NCBI GenBank assembly: GCA_021904315.1
Contig: CM038922.1
Location: 15,475,347-15,539,346, forward strand
Length of the DNA: 64,000 nucleotides
DNA from: Sphagnum magellanicum
Lineage: Eukaryota > Streptophyta > Sphagnopsida > Sphagnales > Sphagnaceae
Direction: 5' to 3'
Under the pieces are notes generated by a model that saw only the letters and a list, made by a program, of their open reading frames with translations, was not told where the DNA came from and ran no database searches. Shown piece after piece: positions 5,572-58,780 of this stretch. Every line of letters starts with the position of its first letter. Positions within the stretch are counted from its first letter, which is position 1. The position numbers were made by a program, and so were the translations under genes.

Positions 5572-11239
<5,668 letters not shown>

Positions 11240-12639
11240 GGAATAGTACATATTACCCATCGATGAAATGCTATAAAGAGATACATTGTACAGATCCATG
11301 AGAGAGGAATAGTCCAGTTGGATCACTGTTTAGATTTCCATATACATACTGATCTGTAAGGAAGCAACAGTGTTGAGATGGTGATTTTGTTTTTTTTGTA
11401 CAGTGTAGTTTCAAGACCTGGTATGAGGACTAATCAAAGTTTTGAAGGAAGATGCACTTAAGACTGTTGCAGCTTGAAATTGCATCACAATCAACTGCTT
11501 GTTGGTTGTTGATCAAGAACAGATCCTGGTGGAGATTTGAAGCCAACGGTGGCTCTGACAATAATGTAGAAATATTTGTACAAACCATAGCAAGAAGTTA
11601 CTTGTTGCATCAAGAAAAGAATGCAAGTGTCATGCTTGATGAACCTCTTAATGCGTCTGTTTCCTCCGCGATGAATTGTTTATGATACTATGTGAAGTTT
11701 GTGCATCTCCTTACTGCTGCACAGATAATTGGAACTGGTATAGCTGGTTTTTTTGGACTCTTTTGTGTGGTCATCCCTGGACAACTCCAGAGACAATCCC
11801 AGAGACAATTCTGTATGTAATCTGGCAGTTGAGGCCAGAATCCCGTAATTAAGGCAATAGAGAAACTGAGGAGTGCAGTGCAAATGCAGGCAAGGAGGGA
11901 GGGAGGGAGGGAGGAGTGATGGGGTTGTGTGAGTGTACTTTTCAGTCTATAACTGTTTGATGTTTGTAGGATGGTAAATTTTCTTTTCTTTTTTTTTTGG
12001 AAAAGTTTTGAGTTGTTTGTTCTCTTTTTGGCGTTTGATTAACGGGAGTCTTTTGATCAAGGTTTGCTCTCATTTTCCACACATGTAAGTGTTGAGGAAG
12101 ACCGTGTTAGTTTTTGTTTGGCAGTGTGGCTGAACTGGGCTGCAGATACTGGTGTCCAGAGTGAAAGCACTTGAGCAATCAGGGCTGTCTGGGATGTATG
12201 CAGCTGTGGAGACGGTAAACTGTGAGAATATTGAATGGCAGTGAAAGGAGAGAGATGGGGAGAAATAGCCAGGTCACACCTGGACTGAAGTAAATAACAA
12301 GGTGCATACATTTGCGTTTGGTGATTGAGACCACCCTCAGATGATTGAAATCTGTGCAGGAGTGAAGAGATTGTTAGTGCTCCTGTATTATGTGGAATAT
12401 ACTAAATTAATCTATGCTTGGTATGTGCCATATATACTAAATTTGTGCTGCATGATGTGGAAGAAGAAGAAAAGGTGTTTCATTTGTGTCACCAGAGTGA
12501 GAAACCGGCTATTGCATTCTGGCTCATCAACACAGCTCCTGGTACTGGTCACTCCAAATAATTAAAAATCTACAGGTTTGTGAAGATTGCCACACTTTGA
12601 CAAAGTTCATTTCAGAAAATAGTTATGGGGAGAGCAATC
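11240..12639. other. Hsp70 3' UTR and spacer
   Basis: The first few hundred bases are probably the Hsp70 3' untranslated region, but I found no unambiguous poly(A) signal. A GGGA microsatellite lies at about 11,893-11,913 and a T-rich run near 11,980. No coding exon is recognised. Confidence 0.5.
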
Positions 12640-15702: not shown

Positions 15703-18700
15703 CTAAACCTGTCTGTAATTCTGATTCTGACCAGTTCTGTTCTGCCCTTCAAGTAGAGCAGACCTGGTGGATGCAGTTGGGTCTACTGTGGTAGCCAACA
15801 AATGTGGGGTGTTAGGCCAGTATAAGTGTCCCCATTGATGTGAGTCCTTTCCCTGTGAAGTTTTTGACTGTTCCTCCAAGCAATGATTACCCCTCCGCTC
15901 TGAGTTGAAACAGCATACTTCCTTCTGGACATGTTGGAAAAACAAATCTGCATGACCAGGGCCATTTCCCTTGTCTCCAATTGCCCGGTAGGTCATGGCT
16001 TTGTCTGGTTCTTTAGTGTATGTCACAGTAGGCCCTTGTTGCAAGTTAGAATTGTGGAGTGAAGTAGCTTTCATTGGGCAAAGACTGGCATCAATCAATG
16101 CCCCTCTCCCACTATCCTCATGAAATGAATCATCACTGCTATCATCACTCTCACTATTGAAGAGCTCCGTCTCATCATCATCACTATCTATTTTCTCACC
16201 TCTACGTCGGTTTTGAATGGCACGCCGCCGCAACACAAAGACGTTGAAGTAGTAGCTCACGAGATCAGAAGTGCTCCTACCTGGGAAAGCATTTGGGATC
16301 TCATCCCAGAAATTTTTGTTCAGTGATGGTGGATTTAAGCGAACAAGTGCTTTGAACATTTTTTCTTCTTTTCTCGTCCAATTGGTCGCCACACCCTCAC
16401 CAACTTGGTCAAATCCCCAAAGTTGGAAGGCCTGCCCAAGCTCTCCCTTGAGATGTTGCCGACCTGTTTCAACATGCAGTCTTACACATTCCAGTGATCC
16501 ACGACGAGGACACAAACAGGTTGGTTCCCTTCCACGGCCATCCCTGGATTTATTGACCATCTGTTCACCCCCAGAAGGCGGCCAGACTCTGGACCCAAGC
16601 CATCTGGAAGAGTCACTGCTTTCTTCATCACTGCTTTGGGTTTCATCATCTCTACCTATCTTTGCCTGCCCTCTCTTGCCTGCACAGTGCTTCTTGTCTT
16701 GAGAACTCCATGGCTTTACGAAGGCCTGGAAATCTGACCCTACTGGAACTCTCTTGGTGCGGGGTTGGTGGTCAGGAAAGGGTGATTGTGACCCATAATG
16801 AGCTAATCGCTCCCGTGTAGTTCGTAATTTCTCCTTTGGCTGAGGCTCTCCTTGAGCTGGATCCTCATAATACACAGCTGGTGAAGGCAACTGCCTGGCC
16901 TGGAACACAGGTCCCAACAAGAAAAGAAAGCTTGTGAGAAGAATTGTACTATAGCATAATGCTTCAGAAAGTGTAGACAGTTGGACGTTGATTCAGGAAT
17001 AGAAATTAGAGACCAGAACATGATTTCAGCTAGCACTCAAGGAATATCCACCAAAATGGCATATGTAGTGATCATTAAAAAACCAAAACACTCCATTGGT
17101 GGGTGAACTGGAGTTGAAAGCTGTCTCTAACAATTGATCCCACAACCTGAGAAGCTGAAATTTCCTGTGGTACAGAACCCTGCTAAAGAATACCTTTGAC
17201 ATGAAGTACCAACAACTGACACAATCCACTTGCTACGCTGACATGAAAATCTTGTGAATCTTGAAAGGACTTCACACTTCTCACTCTGCAAAATTACAGG
17301 CAAATTAAACTGTAGTGTGGGCAGGTTTATCAATGACCTGTATTGGGACCCCATCAGCAGTTCGCAGTTCTTCCCTCCTCATCCACAGGACTGAACGCAC
17401 TCTCCGTGCCAAAGTTCGGAAAAACTGTTCTTGGCTTGACATACCACTCTGGCGATATTGAGAAGTATCGAGACCTACTGCTGTGTCTTTTAACCAGCCT
17501 ATCATCCCAACAAGAGTCTTCTCATGTAATGACATGACCTCAGCACTCTGGCCCCTGCAATCATGTTGAGTCACAGTGCTGCTAATTTGGTTAGGCCCTG
17601 CATGATTTCTTCCATCTCTGCTAAGAGCTTGCCTCCCCATGTACTCCTCTGATGAGTTATCTTCATAATTTTCTTTCCTCTCAGCATGTGATGCAAGCTC
17701 CAAAGTATAAGGAGCACTGGGTTCCCCCGTGCCAGCAAGGGTTTGCACGCCTAAAAACCTCGCAGCATCATCTGTTGCCACATACTTGGCATAGACCAAT
17801 TTCACACCTGGTCCACAATCTCTCCCAAGCCCTAGAGAGTCTGAGATAGTAGCCCATTTTCCACAATCTGTGACTTTTTTGTATCCACCCATAATGTTCA
17901 CCCATCTGTACAGTGAAAGAAGGTTGACTTCCTTCTCACCCATTCGGACAAGCAATGGTCTTCCCATGCTCAGTGGTTGTGGTTCAAGACTTCTCTTGAT
18001 GATTTGCATGTATGAGGCACTATTGACATGACCTGCCTCTGTTCCTGAGCTGTGGTTACCCCTATTTTCCTCCCTGTCATGCTCAACAGTCTTCTCATCC
18101 TGTGCAATTCCACCTTCCTGCACCTGAGTTTCCATTTGTCTTCCATCTCTTGCCCTCTCCATTAGGTGCTTGGGAACCAATTCTCCCACTACCAAAGGTT
18201 CTGAACAACCTACAACTGCAGGAAAGCTTGACTGCCTCCTAGACACATTCAATGCCCTGTCAAGCGCACTTTCTTGAGCCCATAAGTTGGTAGAGGCTTC
18301 ATGGGCTGCCATGTGACATCTGATACCAGATTGCAGACCTTTATGACCTGTATGACCATGCATGTCACTATGCCAGGACTCCATAGTTCCACCCCCATCT
18401 GGAACACAGTGAAAATGAAACTAGGCTTCAGTGCTCACAGTAACTCTACACCAATAAGTGAGAGGCACAAAATAAGGGAGAATTTGAATACTGGAGTCAT
18501 GTTGAGGATTTTCCTGGCATGTTGGACACTATTAGTACATTTAAAATTGAAGCTTAAAAAAGATGCAGATAGAATCATCTGATGACACGCTTTTTCATGG
18601 CCCTAAAATTCACATACATGGGCATACCATGAGATCCAGATCGGAGCCACATTGACAGAATGGAAGATCAGAGCATTTTGTAAGATAAACAATCGTGAGA

Positions 18701-27100: not shown

Positions 27101-28939
27101 AACCTACATCACCAACAGACCATTTCATTATTCACTAGCCAGAAGAGAAACTCCCAATCTCTGATGAGGTAGGACGCGTGAACCTGGATATCCATGGTAT
27201 TCCCCATGTGCTGCATCACTCAGTACATATAAAATACAACAAAGAACACATGACTAGCCTCTGCAAAACTCAAGTGATTCAGTTTATTTGCCCATGCAGC
27301 AACAGACACATGCAAAGAAGAGGTGATTTCTACAACCATCACATTGGGGGAAATTGAGCAATGAACCAAATGAAATGAGTAATTCTGGAATTAGACATAC
27401 ATGGTGCTTGATGGGACTTGAGTAAACTCTGCGAGCTGTGGTTGAATTCAAGCAGGAGACGAGTGGATGCTTGTTCAACTCCACAAAGGACAAAATCTCT
27501 GATTCAGAATAGTGGCCACCTACACCACCTCACCAAACATCACAATGAGAGAGACCTTTGTACACTGCGAGATTTGGCACAAAGACCAATATCTCCACCC
27601 AACACATCATAAGAGAAAACATGGTAATGAAAGCCAATAGAATACGCACCAAAAGCAGCAAAGTTCACAGCCTGTGGCTTGCGCAATGCAATAAATGGTG
27701 GCTTGATAAAGAGTTGCACAATGTCTACATTTGTGGTTTGCAAAAACTCCGTTCCTTCTTCTGCAATAGCCGCTGCAATGAACTCTTCATACTCTGGCCC
27801 CTGCAAATAAAAATCATCAAAGATAAATCTTCACGATGGTCTCTCACAAAATGGATCATGTATGATGAGTTCAGCATGGAAGATCTCAAGATCATGATCA
27901 TTCTCAGAGTAGCTCCTCAGGCAGCGCACCAGCCAAGAAGAAGCTCAAACCTCAAGGATTGAATATATCCATATACTCTGGATGAAAGACCTTTGAATTG
28001 ACTACTCTATTTGAGGCACAAAACATAGAGCAATGCAACAAAAGATTGGGATTTTTTTTCTACCTCAAACTTCTCAAAGTAGCTGATAACAACAGCCACA
28101 TTCTTGTTCAAAAAAGCTTCAGCCTCTGCCTTGGTTGAGATGGTGGTTGCAGCAAACCCTGTCCTTTTGCGCACCCAATTCACCATCTCCTCCCTGCAGC
28201 ACCACTGCTGTAATCTTTCAGGGTTCTCCATGGCCATCATCATCAAGGTCTTAAAGAGATTGTGTTTCCTACTACACAAATCCGCAGATTTACTTAGTAA
28301 GTCTAGAGATCTTTCATTCTTTTTTACTTACCCAGAGCAATGCTGCTAACCCTGAGAGAGAGAAAGAAAGAAAGAAAAGCAACCAAACCTGGAGTGGCCA
28401 GAAGTGTAGCGCTGGAACGTGCCATTGGTGAAGAAGAGAAGAGCAGGGAAGCCTTTGATGCTGTACTGAGAAGCAGTACTGGGGTTATTGACAGCATCAA
28501 GCTTGGCAAACACTACTGTGCTCCCACTCTCGGCAAGGAGTCTGGAAACCAGAGCAAAATCTTCCATCAATGCGGAGCTGCGCGTACACCATGGTGCATA
28601 TCCGAGCAAGAACACATACTCGTGGGATCCTAGCACCTTGTCCACGGTCCGATCGTTGATATCCAGCAACAGCGCTCGCCCAAAGACCGGAGCTGCTGTT
28701 CCGCTACTCCCTTCCTCCTCATCCTCCAAGTCTTCCAAGTCTTCCAAGTCTTCCAAATCCTCCAAATCCTCGCCTTCAACATCCTCCTCGTCAGCTGCTG
28801 CTGCTGCTGCTGATTCCCGTTGGATCTCAGAAGCCACCAAAGTTGTCAGGAGCAGCAAAACGAGGAGGAGGGAAAAAATGCTACACCAACGGCGACGAAA
28901 AGAACAAGAACAAGAACAAGTGACCACCACTGCACTCAT
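24147..28939 (-). CDS. ER protein disulfide isomerase-like protein (PDIL1-5/1-6 type), 12 exons
   Basis: This is a four-domain (a-b-b'-a') thioredoxin-fold protein of the ER lumen. Exons in transcript order: 28939-28389, 28193-28064, 27800-27650, 27519-27401, 27103-27023, 26711-26625, 26028-25957, 25683-25615, 25342-25262, 25020-24886, 24769-24700, 24565-24147. They total 1,965 nt (654 aa), in phase throughout. The N-terminus has a signal peptide (basic, then FSLLLVLLLLTTLVAS), followed by Ala and Glu/Asp-rich repeats. Domain a has APWCTRS, a CxxS site. Domain a' has TPWCVAC, a full CxxC site. The protein ends in an acidic, low-complexity tail and KDEL. The CxxS/CxxC pair matches the plant PDIL1-5/1-6 subgroup. 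A CxxS site can form mixed disulfides and isomerise but is poor at net oxidation, so holding or reshuffling substrates is likely (inference). The donor of exon 11 (AACT|GTGTTC) and the acceptor GATAG of exon 12 are the least certain junction; they were chosen because they keep phase. Confidence 0.93.
28700..28815 (-). repeat. In-frame acidic repeat in the PDI-like gene
   Basis: The coding strand has a 9-nt unit (GAA/GAT-GAC-TTG type) repeated about six times, giving EDLEDLEDLEDLEDLED. A GCA run just before it gives six alanines. Both lie directly after the signal peptide, so they form the mature N-terminus. The unit length is a multiple of three, so copy number can change without breaking the frame. 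Confidence 0.8.
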
Positions 28940-31489
28940 CTCGTGAGCAGCCCGCCACCACCCACACTTTCAAACACAGAAGCTGAAAAAACAAGAGAGA
29001 AAGAAACCGCGATCAGTTGACGATGGACCACAACACTTGTAAAACCACCGCAACAGCAATGTGGATTGAGTTCTCCGTGTAAAACCTCCCCCCTTCTTTC
29101 CCAGTTCTTCTTGCTCACATTGCGCGCAACAAAGTTCTTCGAGACGCCGCCGCTGTCGTCGTCGTCGTCGTCGTCTTAGTCCGTCGTCGAAGTGCAAGAG
29201 CTTCGCCCTTTCGTCAAGCTGCCAACAAGAAGAAGAGCTTGCGGTGCATTGTCGGTGTGAATGCGCCGAAAGAATTTCAACCAAAAACACCTCCTAACAA
29301 ACAAGCAGCCTTTTTTTTTATAAGACATTTGGCGACCAAAAAAAACCCCCAGTGCGAATTGTACAAAGGCGTGTTTTATTTTTTTTGGGTGGGGGGGGGT
29401 GGATTTTTGGCAAAAGTCGCCATATTTTGAGGAAAAGAAGTCTCATTTCGCCATATTTAGACAATGAGATGTTCCTCCTCCTACTGGTCGCCATAACTAG
29501 TCAGGAATCTTTTTTAAGACTCTACTATATTGTCTGACTTGTAGCCAAATGTGGCTCATTCCTACACTCGGCGTTCAGCAAGCATAGGCTCTTGCCAAAA
29601 AGTTTCATTGCTTCTATCTCCAAGCTCATCAGAGCTGCTCTCCTCCTCGTTTATGCTTGTCATCAATGAGCTAGTCCTTGTGATCTGTGTGTTGCCCACT
29701 TGCGATGGAGTTTTGTTTCCATTAAATTGTAGTCACCAATTGCAATATGTCTTCAATGCTTGTAGCTTTTATCATTGATAGCAAGAGCTCCATGAAATCA
29801 GGAATCTTTCATTGTGATGAGCTCACATTGAAGTTCTAGATTTATTTTTTCAAAGCTTCATGATTGCCACGAAATATATTTTACAAGTTTTTTTTTTCAA
29901 GGTTTGTTTTGTATTTTGTGTTTTACAACTTGAAGTCTTTAAGGATGTTGTGAATCATTTCTATGTGCAAAATGAAGGCTAGTTGAATGCGATTATCATG
30001 ATGTTGATTTTATCCTATTGTTTAGCTTTGAAATTTGTTAGGGACTTTGTGCATAATAACAAGAGTATTCATCATAGCATTCATGATCTACATACAAGAT
30101 TCAAAAGAAGTAAGTCATCTATTGCTTTCCCTTTGATTTTCATGTTTGTGGTAATTACCTATAGGGATTTCCATTTCGTTAATGTTGTTGTCTTTCTTAG
30201 TGAAGATGCAATGTTGGTGTCTTTTTTAGTGGTGGTGTTTTTTTTAATGTTATTCCCTTCTTTAATTTTGATGTCTTTTTTAGTAGTGTTCTCCTCTTCA
30301 ATGTTGTTATGTTAAGTGATGTCGTATGTTTTAATGGTGTTCTATGCTTCAATTTTGGTGTTTTTCTTTCAGTGTTGCTCTTTTTTTTAGTGGTGTTTTA
30401 TGTTTCAATGTTGGTGTTTTTTTTAGTGTTGCATTTCTTTTTTTTTAGTGTTGTTTTATTTTTTAATGTTGTTTTATTTTCCAATGGTGTTCTTTTTTTC
30501 AATGCAATTGTCTTCAATGTTGTTGTCTTCTTTAGTGGTGTTATTAATATTTGTTATGGGCATGAAAACAAACAAATCTATAGGATTTCTTAAATCAAGG
30601 TGAAAACAAGGGCAAGCCTAATTTCAAATCTAAATTGTAAAACAAAAACATGACATGTGTAAAATAAGAATCCAACAAAATTTTATTACAAGAACAAAAT
30701 AAGAACATAACAAAGTTATGACAAGGAAATGTATCCAAAATTGGTGTTAAACAAATTGAACATAATGGGGAATTTCATCTCTATTTATACCTATTGGGCA
30801 CCTAGCTCAAGCTTCCAACCTACATGTGCCCATGTAAACCCATGTGTGCACTTTGAGTGAACTAAAATTCAACTAAAAATGAATTAAGACTAAACTAAAA
30901 CTTAATTAAAAATGAACTGAAAGTTAATTAATAATTAACTAAAAGTTAATTGGAAATGAATTCAAAATGAATTAAAAGTTAAATTGAAGTGAATTAAAAC
31001 TTAATTAAAATCTAACTAATTGTGAATTAAAACTAAACTATAAATTAGATATAAGCTCACTATAAGTCCTAGATGAACATTCATATGTATGAACTCCATA
31101 GCATTAGCATCCATGATAGTATTTGTTTAGAACTAATGTTTTCAATGGTGTTGTATTTAATGGTGTTGATGTTTTTAATGTTGTTTTTTTCAATGTTATT
31201 ATTTTCTTTTGTCACAATGCCACCATTAATATTACATGCTTACAAGTTCCAATATTTCTTTTCAAGACTTTAAAAATTTTGAAATAGGTGGGCCTTTTTT
31301 TCATTCCTACTAATGATAAAACTTTTTCATCTCATGGTTTTGATTTTACATCTTTTTTCCCTTTATTTTTTAATTATAATTTTGATATTTCCAATGCATA
31401 TCACACTACATATGTTCTTATGTCCTTGAGTGGGTTTTCCCTCAACCTTAAAAATAATCTACCCATCCCATCCAAGGTATGAATTAAGA
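28940..31489. other. PDI-like gene upstream region, then low-complexity spacer
   Basis: 28,940-29,300 is GC-richer, with a CGT/GTC microsatellite at about 29,150-29,175. It is the probable promoter and leader of the minus-strand gene. From 29,880 onward the DNA is T/G-rich low complexity. A degenerate motif TTTTTTAGTGGTGTTTTT / AATGTTGTTGTCTT fills 30,180-30,545 and returns at 31,136-31,205. 30,850-31,050 is A-rich with repeated AATTAAAA motifs. I see no gene. Confidence 0.5.
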
Positions 31490-42024: not shown

Positions 42025-44494
42025 TCACCAATAATTGGCATCTGCTGCAAGTTCAGCTTTTTTGTGTATTGGTTGCTTAGTTACACTCTTGATGGCATTT
42101 GTGGACAAACCATATACATCAGCAACTTCCATGAAGACTTTTCGGCTAGGTGAAATGTTAGCTGCCTCCATGCTCTCCAACAGTTGCTCCATTTCCTCTG
42201 AATACCCATCCTTCCCATAGGCCCTGGGTGCAGGGACAAACACAATGACATGAGTGTGAAATCTTATGCACAAGGAAGATTAGGATGTCAATTTAGATCC
42301 CACTGCAAAAGATGTGGTGCAGGGCCTGACTCTAGAATGCAGGTCAAGAGTGCAGCATCCCTCACCTGAGAAGAATTGAGTATGAGGATGCCTGTGGATT
42401 CACACAGAATTGCCTTGCATCTTTCAGCAACTTTTCTGCTTCCTCATACAATTTGTGATCACAATAAGCAGCTATCATCGAATTCAATGTTGAAACCTCT
42501 GGCCGGATCTTGGCATCTAATAGTTGCTGAAAACAGTCTTTCATTTTATCAAATAACCCAGCACGCCCATAGCCTGATATCAAAATGTCATAAGTGATGA
42601 CAGTTGGCTTGAAACCAGCACATATCATTCTTGAAAGAGACCCCTCCATCTGTTCCACTTGCCCTGCTCTTGCATAATTACACATAAGTGAATTGTATGT
42701 TCTCACATGTGGTTTGTGTTTGGACTTTGCTCCTGACATGCTTTTGAACACCTGCAAAATGGAAAGACCAATTTCAACTTTGTTGCTCCTGGTATAGAAC
42801 TCATTTTTGTGGCAAACTGATAGCAATAAAATTCAACCAGGAAAAAAAAACCTAATCAATCTCTTGAGTAGAAATAAATCCAGGATATGAAGCATTCGTT
42901 CTGAAAATCCAGCCCCAAAGTCTCAGAGAAAGCATAAATTGTAAAGGAAACCCACCTGTTCCATCTTGGCAAAATCTGCCACCCGGCCATAAGCATCTAA
43001 TAGTGTGTTGTAGGTGACTAAATCAGGCTTGCAGTGTGCTGCACGCATTACTCTCAATACACTTTCCATTTGCATATACTGTTTGCTTTTCCCATATGCA
43101 TCAATGACTCCATTGTACGAGTAGATGTCTGGTGCTATTCCTGCATTTTGCATTTCCTTAAAGAGACTTTGTACTCTCTCAAACTGGTCCAGCTGAGCAC
43201 TTGCCCGCAACAGAATGTTATAAGTCACCACATTCGGCTGACATCTGCTCCAATCAGGCAAAGATCCAAATCAGGTACACATTAGCAAAAACCTCAGTTC
43301 CTCGGCATCAAATGCTCATGAAGAGTCACTGAATTTTATGAAGAGTGAGAATTTCTTCAAACCTTGGTTTTGCCTTCATCTCTTCAAAAAATTTTAAGGC
43401 CTTCTCCAATCCTTGCCCCAAGTCTTGGCTGCGAACTTGAGCTGCTATGACAGAATTATACAAGGAGGTGTCTGGACGACACCCATTTTTCCGCATCTCG
43501 CCAAATAACCACATTGCTAGTCTTAACTGTCCTTCCTTTCCCATAATCGTTATGAGCTTGGAGTAGAATCCACTGTCCGACTTGTACCATTTCTGCACTT
43601 GCATCCATCGGAAAACCTGCCAGATTCCAAAGGGTCATGTAAGAATTGGAGTTTAGGGTTTAAGCCCCAGAGCAATCCATTGCCTCCAAGGTCACAACCT
43701 ATGTCCAGGGTTTAAGCTCCAGACCAATCCATTGCTTCCAAGGTCACAAACAATTGTCCTGAGTTGACAACACATTTCAAAAGTTCAAGTATATAGTTTG
43801 ATTTCTACCCTCAACCCGCAACCCATATACCTCAAGAGCAACCTGCCATTGATGCTGAGCTCCAAGACCTTCAAGAATGTAAAACCAATCTTTAGAATCC
43901 AAACCCCGAGCTTGCTTCTCCAGCACCTGAAGACAACAACCATGGCTTGATTGATCGTTTGCAGTAAACTTCCTTCTTTCCCAAGGAGATAAGATTCAAT
44001 CTGTACTTGCAGAAATCCGGTGCTACTGTCTTCTACCCTTCAGTAGTGGCTCACATTTCTTCTTCTTCCCCTCACACAAACTCAAAAGAAAAAAAGAGTG
44101 GCATACATACCTCCACCACATTGGCTCCATCCAAAGCCAACAGCCGAACGATGTTGGTGGCCGCAGAGCTGCTATCATGGTCCCGTCGTTTGAAGACTCT
44201 GTTGGCAGCGCTGATCACCAACAAACTTTTCTTCCTGCTGCTCCTTCTGCTCTCTGTGAGCCTGTTACTCGACCACCCACCACCTGGAAGAAGGAAAACT
44301 GGTGATGGGTGTCTACAGCATCGCCGTGTTTGAGTGAGGTTTTGTGGGAAGATCAAGCTTGATGATGAGGCTTGCCTGTAGTGAACAGTAGTCCAAAGGT
44401 GTGGTTGGTGATGGTGATGACAAGAGACAAGGGTGTTCGGGAACACAGTAGTGAGGATTCCCTCAACCCTGGAATGGAGTCGCAGCACAATCAT
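42025..44494 (-). CDS. PPR5: Plastid P-type PPR protein, PPR5/EMB2453-like, 6 exons
   Basis: This is an RNA-binding pentatricopeptide repeat protein predicted for the plastid. Exons in transcript order: 44494-44111, 43926-43831, 43616-43363, 43244-42956, 42751-42366, 42223-42025. They total 1,608 nt (535 aa), all junctions in phase. The first ATG in frame is at 44,494. The first 110 or so residues are basic and Ser-rich (transit peptide). Then come VFRWMQVQKWYKSDSGFYSK, LAMWLFGEMRKNGCRPDTSL, RCQPNVVTYNILLRA, MQNAGIAPDIYSYNGVIDAY, AHCKPDLVTYNTLLDAYGR, HVRTYNSLMCNYARAG, GFKPTVITYDILISGYGRAG and IRPEVSTLNSMIAAYC. The whole lacks E/DYW domains, so it is P-class. The sequence order resembles Arabidopsis EMB2453, the counterpart of maize PPR5, which binds and stabilises the unspliced plastid trnG-UCC precursor. 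That target is transferred by similarity. The gene is intact. Confidence 0.9.
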
Positions 44495-50394: not shown

Positions 50395-50730
50395 TGAAGT
50401 GCTGGAGGATCACTTGATCCTCACAACACCCATTTCTGTGGAGAACAAGCAGCAGAAGAAGAGGAAGAAGAAGAAGAAGTGGTGGTGGTGGACAACACCC
50501 ATTTCTGTAGAGAACAAGCAGAAGAAGAAGAGGAGGTGGACAACGCCCATTTCTGTGGAGAACAAGCAGAAGAAAAGAGGAGGTGGACAACACCCATTTC
50601 TGTGGAGAACAAGCAGAAGAAGAAGAGGAGGTGGACAACGCCCATTTCTGTGGAGAACAAGCAGAAGAAGAAGTGGACAATAGCCATTTCTGTGGAGAAG
50701 AAGAAGAAGAAGAAGAAGTGGACATTTTTT
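50395..50730. repeat. Minisatellite, 48 bp unit, about six copies
   Basis: The unit carries GTGGACAACGCCCATTTCTGT and GAGAACAAGCAGAAGAAGA. CATTTCTG recurs at 50,431, 50,500, 50,548, 50,595, 50,643 and 50,685, giving spacings of 69, 48, 47, 48 and 42. The 47-bp unit breaks any shared frame, so the long frames on both strands are by-products. It lies in the upstream or leader region of the two-pore channel gene. Confidence 0.85.
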
Positions 50731-51373
50731 CTTCCAACAGTTTGTCTCCTCCTCTTCCACTCTTTCCCCCATTTTTTTTTTCATTGCTTTCGTTTTAGAC
50801 TTACTTGGCATTCTATCCAGATCCTTGCAAATGTTCTTCTGGAATCTGTTCTATTCAATTTCACATGTGTTGGGGTTTAGCACAGTTCTCGAACCCATTT
50901 GAGGATTCAAAGAGATGACAAAAAGTACATCGTGATTTTTTTTTTGACGATTTTGCAGACAGGATTTTCTTCTTCACCATTTATGAATGATCACCATCAA
51001 GCGAATGACAGATCTTCCGGGATCTCACCATTTTCTTGAACTGCAAAGCACTAAATGTCTCTTGAGAGAGAGAGTGTGTGTGTGCCTGTGGAGATAGATC
51101 CACCCAGTCATTCAGGAGCTCAAAAGAGTCATGCAAAGTAACACCATAAAGCTTCAATCCTTCAAATCTGTTGCAATTCAAGTTGCTTCCAATCAAAGTT
51201 CAATTTTGCTACAATGTCTCTATTGTTTGGGGATATATGCTAAACCCTAAAGTTTAGACCCATATGCTGAGACCTGAATTTCAAATCTCTAGCATGTATG
51301 CTTGTGATGGCAAAAGAAGCAATTTTGCTCTGAGTTCTGACTGTGGCTTCTTCATGTCTCTATTGTTTGCAGA
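50731..51373 (+). promoter_or_regulatory. Upstream and leader region of the two-pore channel gene
   Basis: TTTGCAG at 51,366-51,372 is a splice acceptor placed one base before the ATG, so a 5'-UTR intron is likely. A candidate donor is TGTGG|GTGAGC at 50,198, which would put the minisatellite in the intron. A CTCTTGAGAGAGAGAGTGTGTGTG run lies at about 51,059-51,083. A diverged copy of the start-codon region lies at about 51,214-51,330. Confidence 0.45.
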
Positions 51374-54300
51374 ATGCTAAGCCCTAAATTTAGACTGGAC
51401 CAATCAGCACCAAGACCTGAATCCAAATCTGTAGCAGGTAAGAAGCTTACAATGGCAAACAAGAACAGAAGCAAAAGTTCTGGGCTCCATGAAATTGAAG
51501 AGGACCTGCACCGTCCCTTCTTGGATACATTGAATGAGTGCGATTGGAAATTCCACTGGGCAAGAACTGCGCACTTGGATCCAGAAGCAGCAGTAGTTGA
51601 CAACCCCACTTTGAATCTAAATGTTCAAATGGCTGCCACTCTTGTTGAGCAGGTGAGTATGTAGACAAGAAATCACTGATCCTTTATGTGCCCACAATTA
51701 AGGTGGATGTCAGCAGGTAGCATTTTTTGCTTGCAAGAATCCATAGTCTTTTCTTGTCTTCCTGATCCTAATCTTTGCACCATGGGAATGATTTGGGTAG
51801 CATTTTGCAGGCAATTTTGGGGCGGTTTATGCCTTTGGAAGTAATATACCATAGAAATCACAAGCGAGCGAAAGAAGCATATGTTTTGTACTACAGATTG
51901 CGTCCTGCAAGAGTTGTCAGTTTTTTTGTTTTAGTGATGCTACCAGTATTTGAGGTATGTAAAAACATCTATCCAAAAGAATATCATGAGTCGACATAAC
52001 AGGTTTTGACTCTTATGCATGGAATCATAAACTAAAAAGAATGCTCCCTGATGGCTCCTACTGGTGTTTCTCAATTTCATGTTACAAGCAATAGAGAGTC
52101 CTATGATTTTGTAGTAGATTAGCAGTTGCATTCTGTTGTTTGTTCAGGTGCATTGTTGTTACTCTGTTGCAAGGGGAGAGAGTGTACCATGTGCACTTAA
52201 ACTCAAATCCTCCCCCGAGACTAAAGATGACAGCCTCAATTGAAACAGTTTGTGGTTTAGAGTTCATGTCTCAGGTGGTGTTATTTTGGGTTGGATTCAG
52301 GTTCCTTTTTGGTGTAAAGGAGAAATGCCACAACCTTGCGGGGACCCAGAACTGTATGCACTCAGTGGGATTCCCTACATCAAAAATTGGCACTCCCTTT
52401 TGATTCAGGTCTGTGATAAGAATGCACTAGCTTATGAGCAGTACCCAATACCAGATATGCAAATGACATATAGACATCTGTCTTCAATTTCTTCTTTTCT
52501 CAGATGGTTTGAACATGAAACCTTAGTTGATGGGAATTTGGTCTCTACTGTGCAGGCACTATGCCTCGCTTTCCTTGTGTTCTCAACCATTCTGCAATGG
52601 TATTTTCTAGGCAAAACGTTCTGGACTCGTCTCCTGTCATTTTGCAAGGTGAGTGGTATTCTTTAATCAAGTTATTTATCATCTATTCAGGAACTAGAGA
52701 ACATTTCAGGTTTAACATGAATACCTCACTAAAATCTGTAAAGGAAAAATGCCAAGTACATTTTGAGGTGTAATCTGTGAAAGAAGAGACTCATCCCACG
52801 AGACTAAGTTCTTTTGAGAAGGTGTGGTTAGATCAAGCAGAATGTGGAAGTTTTGATTTTGCAACTATTCCTGGCAGGTGGGGTTGCTTGCAATCATGAT
52901 AGTTTTGGTCATGATTCCAGCTGCGGGTATGTATGGTCCAGAGGCTACCCTACTCTCTATGTACATCCGGTTCATTATTCCTATTGTCTTCACTAGGTAC
53001 TCTCCTTCCTCCAACTGTGGTTTGTTGAGACATTGGAATGTTCAACTAAGGAAGAGACAGACTCTTGTGCTTTCTTCATGTTTGGTTTGTGAATATCCAC
53101 TGCAATCCACAGACCCTTTGATTTGGGAGAGGTTGTTTCCTTTTGCTCTCAGGCCTTTACGGATGTGTTCTCGCATGATAACCCGGATCATGCCCACTTG
53201 TGTGAATATTGCGGTATGTGTTCTTTGCTAAATAGGGTGTGATTTTGAGTCTCTGAGAATATTGAACTTTTGGTTACAGGGTTTTCAATCTCATTGTAGC
53301 TTCCTCTGTTGCACATTTATGAATAGTCTTGTGCTGTCAGGTGGAGGATTAATGGTGTTTCATTATATGAAGTGCGACTTTTGAAATTCTTATTTATGTC
53401 TTATTGGTGCCCCAACATTCACTGTATTTCAGGTCTTGCTGGTAATATTCTTGCTTCTTTCAGCGTATGTTGGGATGCTCCTTTTTGGGAAGAAAACATC
53501 AGAGTTCAAGGACTACCCGACATCGTTGCTGAATTTGATGGTACTGCTGACAACAGCAAATAACCCAAATGTGTGGGCACCTGCATACACTACCAACCGA
53601 TGGGCCTTTGTCTTTTTCTTCATATTCCTGGTGGTGGGGCTCTTTTTCCTCTGCAATCTTGCCTTCATGGTCATTTACAGCAACTATAAAGTTGAGGTGG
53701 GTTCTGGGGTATTCCATCATCAATTTCGTTCACATGATTTTGGATGCTTTATTTTTGGATCATAATCAAGTTTTAACTTCCTTCATCATTATGCTCAACA
53801 CTGTCTCTCACGACTTTAATTTTAGGATTAGCAAGAAAAAAGCAAGCGTCTGTGAAGATTTAGTGTGTGGTTTTAGGGCTTGGGTTGAAGGTTTAAGCTT
53901 TGGATGCTTATCAGTCACTGCCATAAGGATGGAGACTTTAGGCACCTACCTACCTATCTACACTTGGTTTCATGGATCCAAAACTTATGCTGCTCTTCAA
54001 CTAAGAGCACCAGAAGCTAAAAGAACCAATCTAGAAATGCAAAAGAAGTATTCAAACTCCAGAAACAGGACATAGATTATCTACATTGTTTATGGTGTTC
54101 TCTTGATCTCAGTGATTTCTTTTGCTTCATAAATTTCTCTATTGCATAAGATTGATGTAGTTTCAGTAGACTGTAATGTAGGAACTGTCATGTAGCTGCA
54201 ATCTGCTTGCTCAATTTTTTTTGCTGTTTTTAGCCCTGCAAGATTCTACAAATGGACTCTGTGGATTCTGCTATTCAGTGCCATGAATGGCTTCCAAAGT

Positions 54301-56327
54301 TTCACATCTTTTCAATTGGATTGCTAGATAGCAAATGAGGTGGCTAAGCGGACGAGTTTGCAATATGCAACCCTTGATGCCGCTTTCACTCTGCTAGACA
54401 GATTGCAACAAAACTGTATCAATGGGTCATCTTTGATTGCCCTCTTACATGCAATGAACCTCTACAGGTAGCATATTGTCATCCCCTCCTCCCACTTGTG
54501 TATTTCTTTATACCTGTTTTGAAGGATAGTAGTGGTGAATTATATGTTGCAAAAAAATATGGTTTTGAACCATAAAACTATTGTTTGGGTACAGGGACAT
54601 TCCAAACTTCCAACTTCATGAACACAACATATTTTTTGCACTTGGGAAGAATGAGCATTCAACAATAGACAGGGATGAATTTGAAACAGTTTACAGTTTG
54701 ATTGCCCTTGAGATTGAGCAGCAGGTCCAGTCTCTTCCACAACCTGCAGGACCATTCCGCAAAATGATCAGCAAGTTTTGGTGGCTGCAATTTTCTGACC
54801 ATCCACCTTATACTCATTTCATCTGGGCAGCAACCTCTGTGTCCTTGGTACTAGCAATTTTGGAAAGACGGGTAATGCTCCTTTCCTTTCCACATACTCT
54901 TATATATGATGTTCTTTTCCTAAAGACCTCAGTGATCTTTTGGCTTCAAATGCTGATGGCTAATTTGTGTTTCAAGTCTCACTTGAAAAAGGAATTGCTT
55001 GAGAAAACTCCCAAGTAAAAGCACTCAGTAGTTATGTCACACCTACCTTCGCTATGTGATACAGGCTGAAGAAGACGATGTACTCAAGAGGAACTTGATA
55101 CTTGCAGAGTTCTCAATGGGTACGTATCTACTATCTACCAACACAACATCACCCATCAAAATCTGGAGTACCCATTCCTCGGGAATGCGTGCATTTTTTG
55201 TGGGTTGATTGTAGTAGGACATTTGTTTTTCTGTTCACATATCGAGTAGTGATGTCTTGGCTCCATGTAACTGCTGGCAAGGTTCCATGTTCCTGCTACT
55301 GAATGCATTGCCATGTTTCAGCATTTCAAGGCGCTTGCAAATGAGAATTGGAAAGAAAGTAGATTGTAAAAGAGGAAAAAGAATGCTGCGTAGTATATAG
55401 AATGTTTTGTAACCTTTGCTTGCTGGGTTGGAGTGCATTTTGTAGGGTGGTTATTTTTACTGGATACCTTGATCAAAATAGTGTTACAAAGCTGGAGTGT
55501 CTATTGGCAGAGAAATCTAAACCGCTTTGACTTTGTTTTTGCCCTTCTTCTTCTGTTCCTCATCTTTACCCCTTCTTCGGTCTTTCGAATTGAACCCCAC
55601 TGGTATGGTCCTCTACAGCTGATCTTTTTCTTCTAGTGTTAACCACTTACAGATATATATGTCACAGTCATGACCATCGCATGTTGTTTTCTTCTTTCTT
55701 CTTCTCCCTCAAGCAATGCCATTTCTTTGCAGGGTGTCATTTTTGTTCATTGCGAAAGCATTTCGGGTTCTTTCACTGGTAACCTTGATTTCTCGTTGGG
55801 GGTTGATGGCCCACACATTAATCAACTTGCTTCCAGCAACTGCACCAATCTTGATTCTCCAGTTTCTTATATGCTCCAGTTTCTCACTCTTGGGAGTGCA
55901 TCTATTCGGAGGAAAAGTTAACATTGGGCACCCACTGCTGGAAAACACAGAGTATGCCAACGGACACCTATTTGCATTCAATTACAATGATTATGCATCT
56001 GCACTGGTTACCTCCTTCAATCTCTGTGTGGTCAATAACTGGTATGTCATCATGGATGCATATGCATTTGTGACCGAAACACCATGGTCCCGGAGCTTCT
56101 TTATTGTGTTTTGGGCAGTTGCAGTTGCGTTTTCACTCCCAATTGTCGTTGCATTCTTTGTGGAGGCATTTGTGAAGCAAATGGAGAAAGGTGTACTGCT
56201 TCAAGTTCCTCAAGGGGCTAGTGTTTTACCGTCTGAAAGTACCTACACACGCAAATTATCATACCATGACCTCTACAAGGATATTGTGAAGAATCCCTCA
56301 GGACCAATGTCAACAATGAGTATTTGA
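51374..56327 (+). CDS. TPC: Two-pore cation channel, animal-like (type 2) TPC, 12 exons
   Basis: This is a cation channel with two six-helix repeats, expected in an acidic endomembrane or the vacuole. Exons: 51374-51652, 51811-51954, 52301-52408, 52556-52648, 52878-52996, 53153-53213, 53433-53696, 54328-54467, 54595-54871, 55065-55119, 55446-55602, 55733-56327. They total 2,292 nt (763 aa), in phase. Repeat I: S1 about 124-141 (VVSFFVLVMLPVFE), S2 178-196, S3 209-226, S4 about 232-255, S5 265-286. Filter I is LLTTANNPNVWAPAY (about 306-320), then S6. A linker has two degenerate EF-hand-like segments. Repeat II has few S10 charges (AKAFRVLSLV) and filter II VVNNWYVIMDAY (665-676). The tail has LYKDIV. 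Filter II and the tail resemble animal TPC2 (VVNNW, LFRDIL) more than the angiosperm SV channel TPC1 (VMGNW). An alternative in-frame start is at 51,452; AGGTAAGAAG in exon 1 could act as a donor. Confidence 0.93.
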
Positions 56328-58091
56328 GCTCACAATTGAAAACCCATGTACTACATGGGTGCCACCCCCAGATTCAATGATTTGTTTCAATACGTTTACA
56401 TATGCACTCTCTTTTGGCTCACACTTTGTAGAATGGTATTAGGACACATCAGATATCAAATTATGTGTATTGATAAAACCTAAACCTTTCAATTCTAACA
56501 TTGAAGTTGTATTGTTTCACAATATCTTGAAGAAATGGTACACCCACTCATGATATTCAGTCAAATTGAGAATGGGTATTTTTATCAACTATACTATGTC
56601 AATATCTTGGATAAGGATCTTGTTACCATACTCTTTTGTGCCAATGTTTATCTGAGTGATTCGATTTACATTGTTGTTTCATGTGTCAATAGGTTTTCAT
56701 CTTTAGAGATGCTTGAATTTAGATCTTGAATTAAAAAACCTACTCCACACTAGTTACATCTTTTAGTATATCCATGTCCCTTGTGATTGTCAAGTTATCA
56801 ATGCGGGTATTGTAATGTTGTCCACATAAAGATATTTGCCTGGTACAATGCGTTGTAGAAAACTAAGATGAGATGAGAGCAATTGTGCAATCATGAGGTG
56901 CCACTACACATTGTTATGTTATCAAAATGAATGATGAAATCCTTCCAAATTGAGATCTTGACATATGCACTTGTTGGCATTAACTTTGACCTTAATATGT
57001 AGTTAATAAATTTTGAAGAGCAATAGTGCCTTGAAAACACCTACCACATAACTATCAACTCGTGTGGATCAAACTATTCACCTAAGTTGGATAAGATTAG
57101 TTTAGCTTAAAATTCATTCCCTTACATATTTTCAAATGCACATCACATTTGACCAACTTAATCCCAAACATGCCTCCTTGGATAAAATGATTGTTAATTT
57201 CTTCGCCTATTTCTCTTAATGTTGCTTTTGATTGCTTGACAATTTCAAGTATACTTACTTCATGACAACTTTGTGTTAGCCCTTTTCATAACCTCAAAGA
57301 AAGTTATGTGGTTTTCTAAAAATTCAATGAGATTGGCAAATTATGTGACAATAACAAAATCTTTGAATCTTTGTGCTTGTCTTTTTGGTGTTGTTGATCA
57401 ATGAAGTTCCTTAACAAGCTTGTCACGGTCCACCTTAAACTCCATGTCTTAGGGAGCCTTTGCATTCATATATTGAAACATTGTGTGTGAAGTTGGTCAA
57501 ACTTGTTGCTTCAATCATCCTTCTAATCGGAAATTAGTGTAAAACATCATTCCACTTGTTGCATCTAAACATTTTCCTTGTAAAGTTGTGAGCATTAGTT
57601 GAAAGTTACAATTTCCTTTTGTTTGAAATGTCACAATGTTGGAAATATATTGAGGCATTGACAAAGGAGATTGGTTTGATTGTGTGATGCATTGAAAATG
57701 ACATGTGGAAAATGAAGATCAAAACTTTATTTGAAATTTCAACCTCCTTATGTTCTTGGTAAAAAATCATTGAATGTTAAATTGTATTATATGAAATGTT
57801 TAAATTCTTGTGATATGATGCAAGTCAAAGTAATTGTTCAAGGCAGAAGAGACTATTAGTTATGAAATTGCATTATTTTATGTAAGGTGAAGGATATTTC
57901 CTAATACTTTGATGGTAACCTATCATACAACTATTGAAAGCAATTACAATAATATTTTCTTTGACTATAATTTTTAAACCATTGCTATCATATACCATGG
58001 ATTCACTTTTAGTTTGGATCCAATTCCATGTTTAGTCCACAACCATGCAAAATGTTATCCTTTTGTTTTTTATGTGTTTATTTTCATTTGA
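56328..58091. other. TPC 3' UTR and AT-rich spacer
   Basis: The first few hundred bases are probable 3' UTR. Beyond that I see no exon or repeat that I can name. Confidence 0.45.
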
Positions 58092-58780
58092 AAAAATTAT
58101 AAATTGTATAGTTTTCCCAATATTTGGCATTCATGAAGATTATGTTCCATTTAAACAAAATAAGGTTATTTAGTATCCATGTTTGCAATCTAGACAAAAT
58201 TTTAATGGTTCAACCTTTATATTAACATTCTAAAAATGTTTGAAATAAAGCTTAAAACTTAATTTAAATTTTGAAAATTTGACATTGATGCTAAGCCTCA
58301 TATGTCAAGTCAAATTATTGTAATTGGAACACCTACACCATGTTTAAAAGATAGTGTCACAATCGCATTATTCTAATGATTTGTTCCCTTTGCATTTAGC
58401 ATTCATCTAGATCATGTTTGTAAAAACAATGTTGCAAAAATTATAAATTGTATAGTTTTCCCAATATTTGGCATTCATGAAGATTATGTTCCATTTAAAC
58501 AAAATAAGGTTATTTAGTATCCATGTTTGCAATCTAGACAAAATTTTAATGGTTCAACCTTTATATTAACATTCTAAAAATGTTTGAAATAAAGCTTAAA
58601 ACTTAATTTAAATTTTGAAAATTTGACATTGATGCTAAGCCTCATATGTCAAGTCAAATTATTGTAATTGGAACACCTACACCATGTTTAAAAGATAGTG
58701 TCACAATCGCATTATTCTAATGATTTGTTCCCTTTGCATTTAGCATTCATCTAGATCATGTTTGTAAAAACAATGTTGCA
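58092..58780. repeat. Perfect 344-bp direct tandem duplication
   Basis: The segment beginning TTATAAATTGTATAGTTTTC occurs at 58,097 and again at 58,441, exactly 344 bp later. Reading the two through, I see no mismatch, up to GTAAAAACAATGTTGC at the end of each. It is AT-rich and noncoding. Confidence 0.9.

Follow-up and report, generated by a model that had tools for sequence, protein, structure and literature searches.

A stretch of 64,000 nucleotides of the Sphagnum magellanicum genome (assembly GCA_021904315.1, contig CM038922.1, positions 15,475,347 to 15,539,346; the window) hosts an intact, spliced gene for a plant-side two-pore channel (TPC), likely a member of the second plant clade, known as TPC1b or type 2. 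The product would probably be a TPC1b-type cation channel which prefers Na+, is gated by voltage and is insensitive to Ca2+. The second clade has been reported from mosses and liverworts, and its Marchantia members are not the slow vacuolar (SV) channel (PMC9783492). A loss of the clade in vascular plants and hornworts has been published. An initial annotation of the window had favored a type 2 over an SV channel, and the choice is supported by the plant-side position of the protein, by the lack of the calcium-sensing features that characterize the SV channel, and by the agreement with the published description of TPC1b. The same annotation assigned a second TPC type to bryophytes and algae: the cited paper reports the second clade from mosses and liverworts, and no further search for algae was made.

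Filter I, filter II and the C-terminal motif LYKDIV, on which the annotation was built, are carried in one reading frame of 12 exons, separated by GT-AG introns and free of internal stops; the remaining two frames of the joined exons contain 42 and 35 stops. Exon borders were placed by eye, guided by frame and homology. Introns are 242 nt long on average, and the GC content of the coding sequence is 43.6%. The resemblance of the motifs is not fortuitous, because the protein matches TPC chains of the PDB in phmmer searches (E 4e-93 for plant TPC1, 8e-34 for TPC2, 5e-30 for animal TPC1, 6e-30 for TPC3), and Pfam Ion_trans over two stretches (E 4e-32). Entries of AtTPC1 score 309-316 bits versus 120 for TPC2, 108 for animal TPC1 and 107 for TPC3; the top one is 5TUA (316.4 bits), and 5DQQ, featuring TTSNN and VMGNW, scores 311.4. 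The PDB table gives molecule names alone, and we take the species to be Arabidopsis (AtTPC1), human (HsTPC2), mouse (MmTPC1) and zebrafish. The Sphagnum protein aligns with the four solved TPCs across both six-transmembrane (6-TM) halves and the linker, as a member of the two-pore family should; identity is 30.1% with AtTPC1, over 625 aligned positions, and ranges from 23.1 to 24.4% with the animal TPCs, three in number.

In an unrooted maximum-likelihood tree of these five sequences (605 columns), the split setting the Sphagnum protein and AtTPC1 apart from the animal TPCs received an ultrafast bootstrap of 100, which stayed at 100 upon removal of the filters. Analyzed by part, the same split was recovered with 99 in half 1, 81 in the linker and 94 in half 2, and with 99 and 97, respectively, in the filter-free halves. 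Grouping with animal TPCs was not observed in the five-sequence trees, either with or without the filters. Since AtTPC1 was the sole plant reference, the tree speaks for the plant side, and not for a clade within it.

Placement in TPC1b is suggested by the fate of the Ca2+ sites. Residues were aligned on a numbering derived from AtTPC1 D269 alone, which yields correct AtTPC1 letters at the published D454, E528, E605 and other positions, and recovers the published equivalence of HsTPC2 S322 and MmTPC1 K331. Of eight luminal Ca2+-site residues, taken from PMC10665017, one has retained an acid (AtTPC1 E457, D499 in Sphagnum), and seven are changed or missing. The three residues of luminal site 3 (E605, D606, D607) are replaced by N, G and H, E528 by H, D454 by A496, next to a one-residue gap, and D240 lies opposite a gap. 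Ten of the 12 EF-hand positions are changed or missing as well: one ligand out of six is retained in EF1 (AtTPC1 D335, corresponding to D380) and one out of six in EF2 (E387), where AtTPC1 D376 has become G420. The EF region is identical to that of AtTPC1 at 21 of 76 positions, and a one-residue deletion in EF2 falls at D373 in the alignment, its local placement being ambiguous. In TPC1b the EF2 gap has been put at position 47, about residue 368, and a 45% EF-hand identity divides TPC1 from TPC1b in P. patens; the cytosolic and luminal Ca2+-sensing regions of TPC1 are described as preserved from charophytes to angiosperms (PMC9783492). Ca2+ sites are reported as not conserved in clade b (PMC10441842). 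The Sphagnum protein shares several traits described for TPC1b, namely Ca2+ sites unconserved on both sides of the membrane, EF identity below 45%, and a one-residue gap in EF2. The luminal and EF-hand sites conserved in ordinary plant TPC1 are mostly altered in it, though luminal sites vary among ordinary TPC1s too.

Filter II, VVNNW, is the same as in HsTPC2 and MmTPC1, and differs from VMGNW of AtTPC1 and VVNQW of TPC3. A different exon at filter II had been indicated as one observation able to overturn the annotation. The motif [VILM][VMLI][GN]NW occurs once in the six frames of the whole window, and therefore no alternative VMGNW exon is visible. Selectivity of TPC2 is reportedly governed by filter II (PMC11844439), and changing MGN into VNN has been reported to render AtTPC1 Na+-selective (PMC11085791); since the Sphagnum protein has VNN, a preference for Na+ is plausible. 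In the open-licence papers searched, no statement was found that TPC1b channels generally carry VNN. VNN has also been described in diatoms (PMC11085791), and VLNNW in Dictyostelium, along with VMGNW in Arabidopsis and rice (PMC6977259). As diatoms and Dictyostelium have them too, the paired Asn residues of filter II are likely ancestral, and VMGNW would be a derived form. To call the filters animal-type, as in the annotation, is correct for the identity of filter II with HsTPC2, but is an overstatement given this wider occurrence, and given that filter I carries Asn314 at the site of AtTPC1 D269 and HsTPC2 D276, occupied by Asp in all four TPCs compared. In simulations of AtTPC1 and TPC2, this Asp is reported to bind or attract cations. 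Two further changes concern the cavity residue N687 of HsTPC2, replaced by Pro702, and T308, replaced by Phe346.

The neutralized Asp of filter I and a proline in the last pore helix, along with Phe346, may alternatively denote a TPC1b protein with a poor pore and no useful conduction, acting as a voltage-responsive scaffold. We regard this as improbable: apart from these changes, the frame and the two filters are preserved over 763 amino acids, which argues for a working pore, and the same residues are missing from other TPCs compared, mouse TPC1 lacking N687 (Thr) and AtTPC1 lacking T308 (Leu).

Voltage dependence of the putative TPC1b channel is predicted to be kept, perhaps in a weaker form. 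In the S4 helix of the second voltage-sensing domain (VSD2), S568, K574, R577 and S580 correspond to AtTPC1 R531, R537 (R3), R540 (R4) and R543 (R5), respectively, and the charge-transfer center has F, D and D at AtTPC1 Y475, E478 and D500 (sites according to PMC13114498). In mammalian TPCs, Arg at R3 is reported to confer voltage dependence, and Ile to abolish it (PMC6424560).

The annotation also considered the channel possibly lipid-gated, a proposal which finds no support here. Gating by lipids is unlikely because the residues of the sixth helix of the first half (IS6) which couple phosphatidylinositol 3,5-bisphosphate, PI(3,5)P2, to opening are both lost, HsTPC2 R329 and S322 (mouse K331) being replaced by L367 and E360, and because PI(3,5)P2 and nicotinic acid adenine dinucleotide phosphate (NAADP) are reported to be without effect on AtTPC1 and on the Marchantia channels MpTPCs, three of which are located on the tonoplast (PMC9693241). 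The animal PI(3,5)P2 site, made of K203, K204, K207 and R329, reads R, M, R and L in Sphagnum, and is not conserved as a whole. A lipid-gated, TPC2-like Na+ channel acting as in animals would account for the shared filter II, for the basic residues kept in the IS4-S5 linker (two of three, versus one of three in AtTPC1), and for some resemblance of the tail, but is contradicted by the IS6 changes, as R329A nearly abolishes TPC2 activity (PMC6424560), by the insensitivity of MpTPCs to PI(3,5)P2, and by Lys at R3, where TPC2 has Ile; we deem it very improbable. The tail itself, also defined as animal-type, is indeed HsTPC2-like, though weakly. Aligned with the HsTPC2 tail, the last 47 residues score 33, a value which 19 of 5000 shuffles reached; with the AtTPC1 tail they score 18, which 2567 of 5000 reached; when used as query, the last 77 residues matched AtTPC1 entries alone, on the last pore helix, with E values of 1.4 or worse. 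The resemblance of LYKDIV to LLFRDIL of HsTPC2 may be taken as a weak lead.

Several observations weigh against a Na+-preferring TPC1b channel. Of the EF1 marks of P. patens TPC1b, D14 is kept, but D22 (AtTPC1 D343), described as conserved, is Asn388 in Sphagnum, and T25 is Ser391. Placement in TPC1b leans on published features, AtTPC1 being the one plant member of the tree. The loss of the Asp at D269/D276 and the presence of Pro702 at N687 make selectivity hard to predict, and cloud the Na+ selectivity which the annotation had held possible and filter II makes plausible. With Lys at R3 and Ser at R5, voltage sensing may be weaker. The first 130 residues contain no dileucine-type motif [DE]xxx[LI][LI], the start of the protein being, however, uncertain. 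Moreover, the TPC1 of Vicia faba, an ordinary SV channel, is reported to lack E457, E605 and D606, and hence loss of luminal sites is not specific to clade b; similarly, the filter II motif of a soybean TPC differs again, and VMGNW is not universal among ordinary plant TPC1s (PMC9693241). These two examples weaken two of the distinguishing marks, and make the TPC1b assignment slightly less sure, and slightly more credible the view that the gene encodes an ordinary TPC1, or SV channel, in which Ca2+ sites quickly diverged. AtTPC1 is the best match and the tree neighbor of the Sphagnum protein, and VSD2 charges are in part retained. Yet, regions reported as preserved from charophytes to angiosperms are jointly changed, EF-hands included, filter II departs from the VMGNW of Arabidopsis and rice, and identity to AtTPC1 is just the 30.1% mentioned above. 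On balance, we consider an ordinary TPC1 rather unlikely.

If the gene encodes a TPC1b channel, as we favor, two subunits would make one pore in the vacuolar or endosomal membrane. Depolarization would shift VSD2, moving K574 and R577 past the F/D/D charge-transfer center, and the pore would open with no requirement for cytosolic Ca2+, nor would Ca2+ in the lumen block it. The paired Asn residues of filter II may favor Na+ over Ca2+, perhaps also over K+, and Na+ would cross the membrane on depolarization, apart from the ordinary SV channel. More tentatively, and with more chance of being wrong than right, one may envisage a natural vacuolar channel of plants, voltage-gated, Ca2+-insensitive on both sides and Na+-selective, as the natural counterpart of the engineered Na+-selective AtTPC1, having retained an ancestral filter which ordinary TPC1 lost. 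In Marchantia, loss of the type 2 TPCs is reported to leave SV currents intact (PMC9783492). The Sphagnum sequence predicts a Na+ preference and Ca2+-free voltage gating, and suggests that the non-selectivity of the SV channel is a derived state in plants. If this is true, some plants own a dedicated path for Na+ across the vacuole or the endosome, which bears on salt handling and vacuolar excitability.

Features of the TPC gene in the window (positions are those of the window)
Feature	Positions	Strand	Remarks
Coding region, 12 exons	51374-56327	+	11/11 introns GT-AG, 763 aa, 0 internal stops; homology
Exons 1-6	51374-51652, 51811-51954, 52301-52408, 52556-52648, 52878-52996, 53153-53213	+	
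Exons 7-12	53433-53696, 54328-54467, 54595-54871, 55065-55119, 55446-55602, 55733-56327	+	
Exon 1, N-terminus, start uncertain	51374-51652	+	
Exon 7: first 6-TM half, S5 to S6, including the filter I pore loop	53433-53696	+	
Exons 8-9: cytosolic linker, its tandem EF-hands degenerate, then start of the second half	54328-54871	+	
Exon 12 (595 nt, last): S4-S6 of the second half, filter II, C-terminal tail	55733-56327	+	
Filter I TTANNPN, residues 308-314, exon 7	53550-53570	+	alignment
VSD2 S4 (S568, K574, R577, S580)	55737-55775	+	alignment to AtTPC1
Filter II VVNNW, residues 665-669, exon 12	56028-56042	+	alignment
LYKDIV, C-terminal tail, exon 12	56271-56288	+	

The start of the TPC protein is uncertain, because another Met follows at residue 27, and because the start codon resides within a stretch (51355-51440) which is a diverged copy of the adjacent sequence 51213-51300, about 140 bases upstream (alignment score 67, reached by none of 2000 shuffles). 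By eye, the upstream copy carries an early stop. A 48-bp minisatellite of 5.4 copies (50464-50716) is found about 0.7 kb upstream of the predicted start codon, and two tandem copies of a 344-bp unit, 99% alike and denoting a recent duplication, at 58088-58780. Elsewhere in the window, a multi-exon HSP70 gene lies at about 7100-11240 on the plus strand, with Pfam HSP70 in two open reading frames (ORFs); from its C-terminus, read by eye, it is presumably plastid-type. The minus strand hosts neighboring ORFs encoding Myb and ARID domains, which may be a single gene (15706-18420), a thioredoxin-domain ORF (28349-28969), and PPR-repeat ORFs (42365-43270).

Compared with known systems, the Sphagnum protein is like TPC1b/type 2 of Physcomitrium and Marchantia, as described in PMC9783492, in being plant-side, with degenerate EF-hands, the one-residue EF2 gap, unconserved Ca2+ sites and EF identity to AtTPC1 below 45%; it is unlike P. 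patens TPC1b at D22 and T25. It resembles AtTPC1, the SV channel, in fold, closest solved sequence, R4 of VSD2 and positive charge at R3, and differs from it because VMGNW is VVNNW, D269 is Asn, E528 is His, and luminal and EF Ca2+ ligands are mostly lost. Both filters, TTANN and VVNNW, are the same in the AtTPC1 chain of PDB 5TUA, which we take to be an engineered Na+-selective AtTPC1 mutant; yet 5TUA has Asp after NNP, EF-hands and R537/R540/R543, where the Sphagnum protein has N314, degenerate EF-hands and K574/R577/S580. With human TPC2 it shares TTANN, VVNNW, Asp at the D660 site, EF-hands without acidic ligands, and a tail of the form L-aromatic-basic-D-I-aliphatic, but it groups separately in the tree, has lost the IS6 lipid residues, carries Lys and not Ile at R3, and has Asn for D276 and Pro for N687.
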